NCBI GenBank assembly: GCA_002763895.1
Contig: NSLH01000017.1
Location: 1 to 58,650 of the forward strand
Reading direction: 5' to 3'
DNA: 58,650 nt
DNA from: [Chlorobium] sp. 445
Lineage (GTDB): Bacteria > Bacteroidota > Chlorobiia > Chlorobiales > Thermochlorobacteraceae
Below the pieces are notes generated by a model. It saw nothing but the letters and a program-made list of their open reading frames with translations, had not been told where the DNA came from and made no database searches. The position numbers and the translations under genes are program-made. Below, in pieces: positions 44,929 to 56,112 of this stretch (position 1 is its first letter; every line of letters begins with the position of its first letter).

Positions 44929-45045
44929 TCAATCGCCTTCTTCATTTTCTGGCTTTGTGAACTTTCTTGCAATCGTAATGCCAAGCAGTCCGAGTCCTAG
45001 GACAACTGTAGTTAGCACGACCATAAAAAAGAGTGTCGATAACAT
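44929..45045 (-). CDS. 38-residue single-helix membrane miniprotein
   Basis: A complete small ORF, ATG at 45045 and TGA at 44929. The product starts MLSTLFFMVVLTTVV, has one hydrophobic helix of about 25 residues and a charged tail ending KPENEEGD. It lies between the 167-residue gene and sco in the operon, with intact frame in an otherwise unassigned gap. Similar small single-helix proteins act as subunits or assembly factors of oxidases, but its function is unknown. Confidence 0.65.
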   Translation of the reverse strand: MLSTLFFMVVLTTVVLGLGLLGITIARKFTKPENEEGD

Positions 45046-45127: not shown

Positions 45128-45631
45128 TTATTTCTGGATTACTCTCTTGGTCTCACTTGTCGAGAAATTGACCTTAGGCACGTTGTCTTTTTCTTTGCTT
45201 TCTACGCTAGCCGACTGCGCCTCAAGCATGGCTTTCTTTTTCTGGTAGGCTTCATCGGTGAGAATTTTCATTGCTTCACTAATTGGAATTTGGTAAAGGC
45301 CTTTCTTTTCATCGATCACTTTGTAACTATTCAGTGCGCCTTCTTCGCGTTGACGCACATCGCGCAAGAGATTCGATTCAGGCTTTAGGGCGTTTTCTAA
45401 CATCTGCTGCTCACGGCTGATGATAAAGTATTGCGAGATTGCAAACATTATGATCCCCACGAGAATCGTACCGATGATAAAGGAGCCAATAATCCGCCCG
45501 CCATTGACGTCTTCACGCTCATAGTCGATTTCCAATTTTTCGAAAATTTCATCTGGGCGCAAAGGGGCGTTTTGTTGCGCTTCTTTGCTAAGATTTTCCG
45601 ACGCTTGCTTTCTTTCTTGCATTTCAATCAT
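45128..45631 (-). CDS. Conserved-looking single-pass membrane protein of the ACIII-oxidase operon
   Basis: 167 residues: a polar N-terminus, one transmembrane helix (about 46-68, RIIGSFIIGTILVGIIMFAI) and a soluble domain with GLYQIPISEAMKIL, then a charged tail. I do not know a characterised homologue. Proteins with a similar ...YQIPI.A motif occur in cyt oxidase gene clusters of this phylum, from memory and not checked. ATG at 45622 (fourth residue) is an alternative start. It follows actF by 51 bases. Confidence 0.65.
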   Translation of the reverse strand: MIEMQERKQASENLSKEAQQNAPLRPDEIFEKLEIDYEREDVNGGRIIGSFIIGTILVGIIMFAISQYFIISREQQMLENALKPESNLLRDVRQREEGALNSYKVIDEKKGLYQIPISEAMKILTDEAYQKKKAMLEAQSASVESKEKDNVPKVNFSTSETKRVIQK

Positions 45632-48239: not shown

Positions 48240-49726
48240 TTAGTGTCCTCCTTTCGCGGCAAGTTCGGCTTCTTGCTTGTGTGCCTTACTCTCTTGTCTA
48301 TGTGGTTCATGGTGTCCATCGTGGTGCTGTCCATATCCTTCCCAGTGTGGATTAGCTTGTGGCAAAACACCTTTCACTTCAAACATTGCGATCATGGGCA
48401 AGAAGCGCAGAAAGAGCAGAAACAGCGTCATAAACACACCCAGCGAACCGACAAAGGTCATCACATCAAAGATGGTTGGATTGTAGTATTTCCAGCTTGA
48501 GGGCAAAAAGTCTGTTGAGAGTGAGGTTACGGTAATGACGAACCGCTCAAACCACATTCCGATATTGATGAGAATGGAAGCAACGAACATGACGGGAATG
48601 TTCTGACGCAATTTCTTGAACCAGAAGACTTGCGGCACGACCACGTTGCAGAAAATCATAGACCAATACGCCCACGCATAAGGACCTGTTGCGCGTTTGA
48701 TGAAAATCGAGGCTTCATATTCGTTGCCGCTATACCATGCAATAAAGAACTCACAGCCGTACGCATAACCGACCATCATGCCAGTTACCAGCATAATGAT
48801 GTTCATTTTCTCCAGATGCTGCATGTTGATGATGGCTTGCATTTTGGGATAGACGATGCGTGCCAAGACAGCCAGTGTCATTACCATTGCAAAGCCGGAG
48901 AAAATGGCGCCTGCAACGAAGTAAGGCGGGAAGATTGTCGTGTGCCAGCCGGGCAAGATACTGGAAGCAAAGTCAAACGAGACGATGCTATGCACGGAGA
49001 GCACGAGCGGTGTCGACAACCCTGCTAAAATCAAATAGGCTTTTTCGTAGTGTTTCCACTGACGATTGCCGCCACGCCAGCCCATGGCAAAGAAACCCAG
49101 AATGTATTTACGCAGTCCGGGTTTTGCACGATCGCGTAGCGCTGCCAGGTCAGGAATTAAACCAACATACCAGAAAAGCAGCGAGACGGTAAAGTATGTC
49201 GACACGGCAAACACGTCCCACATGAGCGGTGAGCGGAAGTTGGTCCACATCTGCATCTGGTTGGGCACTGGAAAGAGCCAATAATCTAGCCACTGCCGTC
49301 CTGTATGCAGCGAGACAAACGTTGCGGCACAAATCACCGCAAAGATAGTCATTGCTTCAGAGAAGCGGTTGATCGATGTGCGCCATTTCTGACGAAACAG
49401 AAAGAGCACCGCAGAAATCAGCGTACCAGCATGACCGATACCGACCCACCAGACAAAGTTGGTGATATCCCACGCCCAGCCGACGGTTGTGTGATTACCC
49501 CAGATGCCGATGCCTTTGAAAATGAGATAGACAATTGTGCCTAACCACATCAGCGCCGCAGCAAAGGAAATCCCAAACGCAATCCACCATGCCTTCGCGC
49601 GGGATTTTCTGTCACTTCGCCCACATCTTGCGTAATCGTGTGGAAGGTCGGGTTGTTTTCAATCAGCGGCTTATCAAGAGCTTCTTGCCGCTTTCTTTCT
49701 TCCACTGCTGTAGTACTTGCTTGCAT
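48240..49726 (-). CDS. actC: Alternative complex III subunit ActC (NrfD-like, frameshifted)
   Basis: About 495 residues, ten transmembrane helices, NrfD family. The true N-terminus begins at ATG 49726 ([20 protein letters not shown]) and includes the conserved [11 protein letters not shown]. The frame breaks at TT 49594-49595 (AA in the mRNA): one more A restores [21 protein letters not shown]. The C-terminus is rich in His ([15 protein letters not shown]), typical of ActC. It is the first NrfD-like membrane core subunit, next to the small ORFs. Confidence 0.94.
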
Positions 49727-49804: not shown

Positions 49805-49993
49805 TCAGTATTCATCTTTTGAGACTTTGACTGGGCGCGACGGCTTGGAATCTTTTGCTGGTTGCCTATCGCTCATATTCTCGAGCTTTGGATTGTCGTG
49901 CATGCGCTTAAATTCCAGCAGTGAAAAAACGATTCCACCAATGAGCAGAATGGTGATAATCGTCCCGAACACCACTAACGCTGTATCGCTCAT
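49805..49993 (-). CDS. 62-residue single-helix membrane protein in the ACIII operon
   Basis: 62 residues: one transmembrane helix (about 6-28, VVFGTIITILLIGGIVFSLL) with a hydrophilic tail of about 34 residues rich in Lys, Asp, Pro and Ser. It lies 24 bases after the 93-residue ORF and 79 bases before actC. It may be an ActG-like small ACIII subunit or an oxidase-assembly peptide; not recognised as a named family. Confidence 0.65.
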   Translation of the reverse strand: MSDTALVVFGTIITILLIGGIVFSLLEFKRMHDNPKLENMSDRQPAKDSKPSRPVKVSKDEY

Positions 49994-50017
49994 CTTGCCC
50001 GCCCTCCTTCGGTTTGG

Positions 50018-50299
50018 TTAATCTTGATTTATTGGTGTTCTCGTTACAATGCTTCGGAAATAAAGCCCGAGCGAGATGCTGCCTACGACCCAAATGCCGA
50101 CAATCTGTCCCGCATCTTGATTGTTTTCAATGAACCAGAGATAATTGCCAAACGCATAGGCAATGATGACCGCGCCAAGAAAGAAGTAGTCAAAGACGCG
50201 AATGCTCTTTGGGTTCATCTCTTGCAAGGCAAAGAAAATCCCGATGCAGGCAAGGAGCGTGACCACAAGACCAGCTATCAAAATCATCTGATTATCCAT
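50018..50299 (-). CDS. 93-residue small membrane protein, second of a tandem pair
   Basis: From ATG 50299: about three transmembrane helices (about 4-25, 36-55, 68-85) and the C-terminal motif IWVVGSISLGLYFRSIV. The preceding ORF ends with a similar motif (LWVPTNLVMGIYFRNIA), and the DNA CAATGCTTCGGAAATAAAG (50048-50066) matches CAATGTTTCGGAAATAAAT (50327-50345) in that gene, so the two are probably paralogous. Unknown function; embedded between actB and actC. Earlier start at 50329 is possible. Confidence 0.65.
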   Translation of the reverse strand: MDNQMILIAGLVVTLLACIGIFFALQEMNPKSIRVFDYFFLGAVIIAYAFGNYLWFIENNQDAGQIVGIWVVGSISLGLYFRSIVTRTPINQD

Positions 50300-50303
50300 A
50301 GCC

Positions 50304-50456
50304 CTACTCCTTTGGCATAGTGGTTGCAATGTTTCGGAAATAAATCCCCATCACGAGATTTGTTGGCACCCAGAGGCTGACAAAGAGCGCTTCATTGAAC
50401 TTACCACTCAGTAGCAATACATTTGCCAGCACAAATGCGACCAGTGCTGATAGCAT
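50304..50456 (-). CDS. 50-residue small membrane protein, first of a tandem pair
   Basis: ATG 50456, stop 50304. Two hydrophobic helices, with MLSALVAFVLANVLLLSG first and the motif LWVPTNLVMGIYFRNIATT at the end. Five bases separate it from the next small gene. Dropping one A from the A7 run 50457-50463 would join an upstream ATG at 50484, adding MLRRSDIFF, so the N-terminus may be slightly longer. Not a family I recognise; probably an accessory ACIII or oxidase subunit by position. Confidence 0.6.
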   Translation of the reverse strand: MLSALVAFVLANVLLLSGKFNEALFVSLWVPTNLVMGIYFRNIATTMPKE

Positions 50457-50500
50457 AAAAAAAGATGTCGGAACGGCGTAGCATACTTCTCTCCTTCTCT

Positions 50501-53500
50501 CTATGCTTTTTGTTGTTCAAGTTCGGGATTCGGATTGCGCAGTTTAGCCAGATAGGTCGTTCTCGGCTTGACATTCAACTCACCGAGAAGTGCATAGTTG
50601 CGGTTCTGCGCTTTGATTTGCGAGACCTTGCTGTTTGGATCTCTGATATCGCCAAAGACGACGGCTTGCGTTGGGCACACTTGCTGACAGGCTGTCATGA
50701 TTTCACCGTCGACTACTTCTCGACCTTCATTTTTAGCCATAATCTTCGTTGTCTGAATGCGATGTACACAGTAGGTACATTTTTCCATCACACCGCGCGA
50801 GCGTACAGTTACCTCCGGGTTCATCGCCATTTTCGTGATTTCAGGAATCTCACGGTTCCAGACCACATTATCATTTTGATAGTTGAAGTAATTGAAACGG
50901 CGCACTTTGTAGGGGCAGTTATTGGCGCAGTAACGCGTGCCGATGCAACGGTTATAGACCATCGTATTTAGCCCTTCTTGATCATGCACGGTTGCTATGA
51001 CTGGGCAGACTTGTTCGCATGGGGCATTTTCACAATGCTGACAAGCCACAGGTTGATAGACAATTTCAGGCATATCGCCTTCGCCCGAGAAATAGCGGTC
51101 AATGCGAATCCAGTGCATGTGCCGACCTTTCGCCGTTTGCTCTTTGCCGACTACCGGCACATTGTTTTCGCTCTGACAGGCTACCACGCACGCATTGCAA
51201 CCAATACACGCATTGAGGTCAATCGTCATGCCCCATTGATGCCCTTCATCAAATTTGTAAGGCGATTCGTAGAGCTTCGATGGGGGATATTTCGTCAGAT
51301 GCGCATCCACAAAGTCAGGCTTTTGCTGATACTCTGCAAGTGTGCCTTCAATGACAATCGTTCGTCCTTCCATGTAACCGTAATACTGCGTGGAAGCCAC
51401 CAGCATGGTTTTGCCTGTTTTTACAACTTCCACGCCTGAGCAAAAGTCCATAGCATCGCTGGTACGCACGGCATAGACATTTGCACCTACACCGTTACCG
51501 ACGCGCCCTACCCTTTCACGACCATAGCCTAAGGCGACGGTAATTGAGCCGTCAGCATGTCCAGGCACAATCCACACCGGCAGCTCAACTTCGCGCCCTC
51601 TCACACGCAGCTTAATGACTTCGCGCTGTGTTTCATCTAAATTGAACTTCCATTTCAAGCCAAGTTGTCGCGCGGTCTCTTGGCTCATGAGCGCGGCATT
51701 ATCCCAGCAGATTTTGGTAATGGCTTCGGGCATTTCATGTAGCCAAGCGTTGTTGGCATATCGCCCGTCAAAGGTCGCCGTTGAAGGCTGAAAGCAGAGT
51801 TCAAGCCCTTTGGTCTCAGCATCAAACGGCTTTTGTGAGAACATCTGAGCAAGCTCTGCCGTGTTCAGCGTTGGCACAATAGGTTGTGCAGCACTGTTTT
51901 CAATGATACCATCATGCAACGCCTTTCGCCAGAAGTCTTCAAAGGCAAGCCCACTTAGCCCAGTGTGTTTTTGCCATGTCTCCTGCGTGAGTGCATAACC
52001 TTTGGCATCGACACCTGTGGTAATTAGGTTTAAGACCTCAATGGGTGAGCGCGTATCAAAAAGTGGTGCAATAAGCGGCTGGATGAGGCTTGCTGTACCA
52101 TCTGCAGCGCGTGCATCACCCCAAATTTCCAAGAAGTGTGCTCTCGGCAAATGCCATGTGGTCAGTGCTGATGTTTCATCATTGTGATAACTAAGGTGAA
52201 TCGAAGTTTTGACTTTCTTTAAGGCACCCTTGAAGTCCAAATCGGCTGGGGCGTTGTAGACAGGATTGCCGCCTAATATGACTAATGTTTCAACTTGACC
52301 TTCATGGATTGACTTCACGAATTTTCCAAATTCACTTCGGCTCGGCAGTGCAGCGTCTTTGAAGGGGACAAATGACAGTGTCTTGCCCAAATTTTCCAGT
52401 CCTGCGTTAATTGCAATCGCCAGAGCGTGCACAGGTGCCGGTTGTTCTCTGCCCACCACAACGAGCGATTTACCTTTGTTTGCAATCAGGTCTTTTGCCA
52501 CAGCTGCAATCCACTTCTTGTCAAACTCCATTTGTGGTGCGCTCAGTGCAGCTGACCCGGCAATCGCCACACCTTGATTTTTGAGCTCTATCGCTAAGGC
52601 AGCTAAGAACGCCCCGATGTGTCTTGACTGCATGCGCAAGCGATGATCCGCCATCGCTCCTGTTGCACTGAAAGCGTTTTCAACGACATAGAGCCGATTC
52701 ATCGTATCTTTTTCCGAGCTTACCCGTCGTCCGTCAATGAACGCACGTGCATTTACAATGCTTTCGGATTCTTTAAGCAAGAAATCTGCATCGAGTGCCA
52801 AAATGACCTGCGCGTTGCGGAAGTTGTAAATTGGTCGTAGCCTTTCACCTGTTGCCACGCGCACACCTTCGAAGATGTTTTCATCGCTGATGGGTTCGTA
52901 CGCCACGACTTCTGCTTGTGGAAAGGCTTTGAGACACTCACTCATCAAGCGCGCCTGTGTTGGTGAGGCAAACGATTCAGTCAGAATCGCCAAGCCTTGT
53001 CCTTTGTTCTCGACATAGCGCAAGAGTTCATTGCGCCAAAATTCGGTGAAGGCTTCCCACGACTGCTTTTCACCTGCTTTGAGCACATACTGCGAGCGAT
53101 CTGGGTCATAGAGATTCAGGATTTCTGCTTGCGTAAACGCACTGCCTGCTCCCAAGCTGGCTGGATGTTTTTCATTGCCCTCGATTTTGTTAGGTCTGCC
53201 TTCGTAGCTGCGCACTAACAAGCCATAAGCGGAAAGCCCAAAGGGCATTGTAGTTGCATAGTACTGTGCAACACCGGGCGTGATATCTTCGGGAGCTTTG
53301 ACATAGGGCACAATTTTCTCAACAGGCGACGGCAACTGGCAAGCCCTGCTAAAAGCAACGACGCGCCCATAATGGTGAGAAACTTGCGACGCGAAATCGG
53401 ATCGCTCATCTCCACAGCACTCTCGGGGAATTCTCGCTCTACCCACTCTTGAAACTCTGGTGAATTAGCCTCTTCTTCAAGAGCGCGCCAATATCTTTTG

Positions 53501-53544
53501 CCTGTGTGCGGCGTCTCTATTTTAGGTCGTGGCGTGCGTTTCAT
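50501..53544 (-). CDS. actB: Alternative complex III iron-sulfur subunit ActB (frameshifted)
   Basis: About 1014 residues. The N-terminus has a Tat-like twin-Arg signal with a lipobox (SRRKFLTIMGASLLLAG then LASC). A long molybdopterin-oxidoreductase-like but cofactor-free domain follows, then a C-terminal ferredoxin domain with Cys clusters CIGCNACVVAC, CQHCENAPCEQVC, CIGTRYCANNC and CTYCVHRI plus CQQVCPTQ, giving three [4Fe-4S] and one [3Fe-4S] in known ActB. The frame breaks at GG 53325-53326; one more C in the mRNA joins SCRR to PVEKIVPYVKAPEDI. It conducts electrons from quinol oxidation sites to ActA. Confidence 0.96.
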
Positions 53545-55695: not shown

Positions 55696-56112
55696 TTACG
55701 ATTGCTCTTCATCATCCAATTCATCGAGCTGAAGTTTTTCGCGGTGCTTGCGTAGTTCGGTGCGTCGCAGCCGTGCCTTCGTCCAGTTCTGTGTTCTGAC
55801 AAAGCGATAGATGCCGTAGAGTGCCAGCACCGCTGCAAGCGTTGTGCCATACTGTTCTGTGATAGGATTACGTCCAAGTTGGAAGTAGACACCAATCGCC
55901 AGTGCAAAAAAGAGCACAGCAAAGCCATAGCCTGTAATTTCTGTGAAAGTCAGTCCGCCAAAGATGGTGCGACTTTTGTTGCGCTCACGAATCTTTGCAC
56001 CAATGCTGCCTTTTTCAGGCAAGTAAATTTTTTCATCATCTGAATCTGCTGCGCCGTTTTTTTGCGCGCTGCCATTTCGTGGATAGTCTTCTCTTTCTCT
56101 TTCCTCGTTCAT
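55696..56112 (-). CDS. Hypothetical two-helix membrane protein
   Basis: 138 residues: an acidic/polar N-terminus (about 1-55), two transmembrane helices (about 60-80 and 90-108, FAVLFFALAIGVYFQLG and AAVLALYGIYRFV) and a charged tail rich in Arg, Lys, Glu and Asp. Not recognised. It sits upstream of ctaB on the same strand, 438 bases away, so it is probably a separate unit. Confidence 0.6.
   Translation of the reverse strand: MNEEREREDYPRNGSAQKNGAADSDDEKIYLPEKGSIGAKIRERNKSRTIFGGLTFTEITGYGFAVLFFALAIGVYFQLGRNPITEQYGTTLAAVLALYGIYRFVRTQNWTKARLRRTELRKHREKLQLDELDDEEQS

Follow-up and report, generated by a model that had tools for sequence, protein, structure and literature searches.

ACIII is known to carry variably encoded accessories: ActG is absent from some ACIII clusters, and ActH was detected only by mass spectrometry (PMC5928083). 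A literature search, mostly of papers open without subscription, returned no paper describing genes between actB and actC. Our window, by which we mean the whole analysed stretch of 58,650 nucleotides, has three genes in that place. It is part of a Candidatus Thermochlorobacter genome (contig C17 of a 2.81-Mb assembly), from a hot-spring relative of the green sulfur bacteria.

The operon lies on the minus strand, in the order ctaB, actA, actB, A, B, C, actC, actD, actE, actF and cox genes, and is headed by ctaB (55257-54298) before actA. Domain matches were obtained for ctaB, actA, actB, actC and actE. The upstream neighbour of the three genes, actB (50501-53544), has Fer4 and molybdopterin domains. 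The downstream neighbour, actC (48240-49726), matches NrfD (PF03916, E 4e-24) and, in a PDB sequence search, the solved ACIII subunit C (6f0k_C, E 1e-193). Two further single-helix ORFs follow actF, of 38 aa (44929-45045) and 167 aa (45128-45631); the longer could be an ActG-like gene.

Three small genes between actB and actC

As the initial annotation had reported, three small ORFs, each predicted to span the membrane, lie on the minus strand between the end of actB (50501) and the start of actC (49726). Gene A (50304-50484) encodes a protein with two transmembrane (TM) segments, about 59 aa long in congeners; gene B (50018-50299) one of 93 aa with three; and gene C (49805-49993) one of 62 aa with a single TM segment and a charged C-terminal tail, conserved in the genomes of family f1 and in G097, a genome from another family of the order. 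The same cassette, in the same order and place, is found in five other Thermochlorobacteraceae genomes (G002, G004, G006, G007 and G008), so that ACIII loci of relatives do hold homologues, with A and C also in G097. A relative of B with 90% identity is in a record named ‘Candidatus Thermochlorobacter aerophilum’; searched against genome contigs, B matched a single congener.

All three genes are shown to be under purifying selection. Comparison of close relatives gives dN/dS values of 0.03-0.16 for A and 0.02-0.06 for B, and the corresponding value for C is about 0.16-0.31, taken as pN/pS for two pairs in which dS was saturated. Ribosome-binding sites precede all three in the window's genus. 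That of A (AAGGAG, 50491-50496) serves a start codon at 50484 and is conserved in position in congeners; that of C is AAGGAGGG (50002-50009). The tight spacing first remarked between A and B is real: 4 nt separate the stop of A from the start of B, and the Shine-Dalgarno sequence of B (AAAGGAG, 50307-50313) overlaps the last codons of A. Terminator-like and promoter-like matches across the region are no better than shuffle level, which makes a shared transcript plausible.

In the window, gene A carries a frameshift caused by one T too many in a run at about 50464, as judged against two congeners; of the reading frame that these place from 50484, only 50456-50304 is open. The comparison with two congeners likewise shows a single base missing from actB (near 53327) and from actC (near 49598). 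The three frameshifts fall inside 4 kb, in genes that relatives have intact, and are probably sequence or assembly errors of the metagenome assembly.

Anatomy and origin of the cassette

Proteins A and B have in common the motif W-V-x(6)-[GA]-[ILV]-Y-F-R-[NS]-[IA]. The likeness goes beyond chance, since the A family aligns with the second part of B by hhalign (98.5%, E 1e-15) and tblastn with B as query retrieves A. Both the C-terminal motif and a 19-base near-repeat had been pointed out in the initial annotation. The repeat exists (17/19 identical), with its first copy beginning at 50047 rather than 50048, and it consists of the codons for the conserved YFR[SN]I; over the 24 codons shared by A and B, DNA identity is 47/72. 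We accordingly rejected it as a functional DNA element. B retains the W, Y, F and R of the family and has lost the proline of W-x-P.

The remainder of B resembles C, whose signature is M.D...G...T.....G..F...EF..M. The C family aligns with the first helix of B by hhalign (95.7%). When the N-terminus of B was set against C, ungapped from the first Met, the score exceeded column permutation for all B rows (z 4.6-6.5), and z was 2.5-3.5 when the test was confined to the two genera outside Thermochlorobacter. An HMM of C also matches B, in G008 at E 5e-7 and in the window at E 2e-6. The AlphaFold2 model of B, made from eight sequences, has helices at residues 2-27, 35-57 and 61-86 (mean pLDDT 82, pTM 0.71). 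Judged from its sequence, then, B is a C-like TM helix (residues 1-28; 50216-50299) fused to an A-like two-helix domain (residues 34-89; 50033-50200), and the array is A-[C'A']-C. This composite nature was missed in the initial annotation of a tandem pair at 50018-50484, and C (49993-49805), which falls outside those coordinates, has to be added to the unit.

In a tree of the two-helix domains all B sequences group together (100/99), with the A of A-B arrays as their sister (94/84 for the joint group), and the A from the act operon of G097 falls outside both (91/84); the tree was built on 62 columns, which leaves its fine branching unsure. G097 has A and C between actB and actC, about 160 bases apart, and no B. 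A and C are adjacent there, as they are in f18 (another Bacteroidota family), and B intervenes between them in Thermochlorobacteraceae. The simplest history would be that an A-C pair was duplicated and its inner C and A were then fused, from which an A-[C'A']-C array is the expected product; the A-C of G097 is a preserved intermediate of this build-up. The suggestion that A and B arose by tandem duplication therefore survives in part: hhalign and the tree agree that the two are homologous and come from a duplication, but B, with its additional C-like N-terminal helix, is more than a copy of A. What is new here is the A-[C'A']-C arrangement, together with the intermediate that G097 preserves and the recurrent A-C pair described below.

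The genes at ACIII loci and away from them

The cassette lies between actB and actC in six genomes, that of the window (G000) and the five named above, and is thus encoded inside the act cluster there. It does not extend to the ACIII clusters of other lineages: all 40 of the other Bacteroidota ACIII loci sampled, from some 30 families, lack any such gene, their actB-actC gap being 8-279 bp (the longer gaps were inspected by eye). The initial claim that other ACIII operons have no genes at this point holds in this sample. Nearer at hand, G003, a congener of the carriers G004 and G006, has an ACIII operon with an actB-actC gap of 53 bp and no cassette; the rest of its assembly, 84% complete, yielded no A or B either. 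With ACIII present in G003 and in 40 other loci without it, the cassette is dispensable.

Two more genomes were considered as cassette-lacking and proved unusable. In G005 neither ActC nor ActB was found. In G001 the assembly breaks at precisely the point in question, with one contig running out within actB and another beginning within actC (G001:C42:2-787 and G001:C15:1), as if the interval were hard to assemble.

PDB sequence searches with A, with a profile of B and with C gave nothing relevant at E<=10 among chains that include several ACIII structures, so that a sequence relation to any solved ACIII chain was not found; Foldseek with the model of B gave no match at E<=0.001 and nothing below E 3. 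Scanned against Pfam and NCBIfam, A, B, C and their relatives gave matches below threshold only.

Of 392 genomes searched by profile across the phylum, 125 have A at E<=0.01, in most cases well away from ACIII. Members from f17, f18 and f19 align with A and share invariant D, F, W, P, G and Y; they have its two helices and the F-[VI]-x-[LI]-W-x-P and G-x-Y signature. In f18 a C-like gene directly follows A in 19 of the 19 loci fetched, usually with a 4-nt overlap. These genes were scored with an HMM made from act-located C genes only, and they have the one N-terminal helix, the G/T/G/F spacing and the E-F at the helix end that mark C; among 224 small ORFs scored with this HMM, almost none matched besides those following A. 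Another single-helix gene overlaps A likewise in f17 and f19. A-C outside ACIII is thereby shown to be a conserved, translationally coupled and recurrent gene pair, widespread and hitherto undescribed, and it adds a pair of small membrane proteins for which no Pfam or NCBIfam entry reached its cut-off.

Six f18 A-C loci adjoin bacteriorhodopsin-like and Blh-type genes, the rhodopsin being called by Pfam Bac_rhodopsin at one locus and by tblastn at the rest and the Blh type by eye; others adjoin aldo/keto reductase genes. The six are L096:6176-7589, L097:4124-6607, L101:5275-6369 and, likewise, L078, L081 and L082. With neighbourhoods so different, no fixed genomic partner outside Chlorobi can be named. 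Further A-like proteins were met in passing. One, of about 80 aa and in single copy, is present in nearly all Chlorobiales genomes searched (for example G000:C8:32638-32778, at L091:5549-5788), and weaker ones, annotated as hypothetical, are on plasmids of haloarchaea and Rubrobacter (L109:4944-5228, L110:4917-5216 and L111:4980-5141).

A second situation away from ACIII is that of G095, presumably Chloroherpeton thalassium, a complete genome of 3,293,456 bases. It retains A-B (L089:9559-10035), and neither an ActC match nor a heme-copper oxidase (COX1) was found in it; its best ActB-like matches have 36-37% identity only and are located elsewhere in the genome. A-B thus persists in G095 in the absence of detected ACIII, and the genes are not confined to where ACIII is found, either here or in f18, whose A-C loci lie away from act genes. 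The pair stands next to ctaA (COX15-CtaA, E 6e-34) and to a gene homologous (39%, E 3e-16) to window gene 55696-56112, which lies just upstream of ctaB-actA. These two neighbours suggest either the remnant of a former respiratory locus, in which A-B was kept after ACIII had gone, or a place where the pair resided earlier. By eye, an ExbB/ExbD/TonB-like cluster is also nearby. A heme-A synthase gene with no heme-copper oxidase detected is odd in its own right.

Possible roles and comparison with known systems

The cassette is most likely a dispensable module that the act operon recruited, rather than a core ACIII subunit: A-C occurs mostly elsewhere, A-B is kept in G095, and G003 does without. 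A pre-existing two-gene membrane module, with two helices from A and one from C, would have been taken up into the act operon and would have become A-[C'A']-C in Thermochlorobacteraceae. The fusion of a C-like helix with an A-like domain in B predicts a contact between A and C, two proteins that probably bind one another; they would form a three-helix A·C bundle, to which B would be the single-chain equivalent. No cofactor ligands are visible in A, B or C, and since ACIII works elsewhere without these proteins, catalysis does not depend on them. The bundles, if translated from the ACIII transcript, may sit on the membrane face of ACIII or of the neighbouring caa3-type oxidase as supernumerary or assembly and stability proteins. 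Operon position points, more weakly, to such an accessory role at ACIII or the adjoining oxidase.

The whole of this reading, in which a recruited A-C module was duplicated and partly fused and its A·C and B bundles became lineage-specific ACIII accessories, is the one we prefer, and we hold our confidence in it to be evenly balanced. It is weighed down by the A-B of G095, the absence from G003, the failure to find a PDB homologue or a significant fold match for B, and the unrelated neighbourhoods outside Chlorobi.

Several of the same observations are what a passenger would leave, that is, a module transcribed with ACIII but acting elsewhere in the membrane, as is presumed of the A-C pairs in other bacteria, and for which operon position means co-expression only. 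The f18 pairs sit beside rhodopsin and Blh, aldo/keto reductase and other genes, A-B is retained in G095 where neither an ActC match nor a heme-copper oxidase was found, and the cassette is missing both from G003's ACIII and from that of every other family sampled. We regard this as almost as probable as the preferred reading, if somewhat on the doubtful side, because a random passenger need not have kept the actB-actC position, with purifying selection, across several genera and a second family; the G095 locus, moreover, may be a respiratory remnant, given the adjoining ctaA and 39% homologue.

A broader proposal is speculative and unlikely to hold as it is put: that in Bacteroidota the two A-C proteins are a general helper of membrane systems that transduce energy (rhodopsin pumps, ACIII and haem-A/oxidase loci), of which Chlorobi have fixed a doubled, single-chain version in the ACIII operon.

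The initial annotation favoured candidate new ACIII subunits, and this we do not retain as the leading reading, as the families lie mostly away from ACIII, G095 has A-B but gave no match to ActC or to a heme-copper oxidase, and G003 lacks the cassette. In its strict form, that A, B and C are stoichiometric structural subunits and counterparts of accessory or unassigned helices such as ActG and ActH, it can appeal to operon position and to the variably encoded accessories already known for ACIII (PMC5928083). Loss in the congener G003, occurrence where ACIII was not found and the want of a sequence match to any PDB chain make it improbable. That the ORFs are spurious, or an assembly artefact, is scarcely credible: the one-base frameshifts of A, actB and actC in the window might suggest it, but the frames are intact in relatives, and conservation across independent genomes, at dN/dS values much lower than 1, already refutes it.

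The locus shows an ACIII operon caught in the act of acquiring membrane proteins from outside. The intermediate states are preserved: an empty actB-actC interval, A-C, then A-[C'A']-C, and also A-B off ACIII.

Among known systems, ActG, ActH and the unassigned helices of the Rhodothermus marinus ACIII (PMC5928083) resemble the cassette proteins in being small, tied to ACIII, variably encoded and non-essential for catalysis. The differences are that ActG spans the membrane with a single helix and ActH is periplasmic with three helices, whereas A has two TM segments and B three, and that A, B and C lack a sequence match to any PDB chain, deposited ACIII chains included. The Chlorobiales gene of about 80 aa has the two-helix profile of A and a FIGLWAPT motif, but it stands in another neighbourhood with no C partner, on a separate branch of the tree (100/99). 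Also comparable is the unnamed A-C pair of other Bacteroidota, composed of a two-TM G-[LI]-W-x-P-[ST] protein and a one-TM EF-motif protein, to which the window's A and C belong by profile and gene order. That pair is plain and lies outside ACIII; the cassette is its expanded form, A-[C'A']-C, placed within the act operon and with a B that has given up the W-x-P proline.
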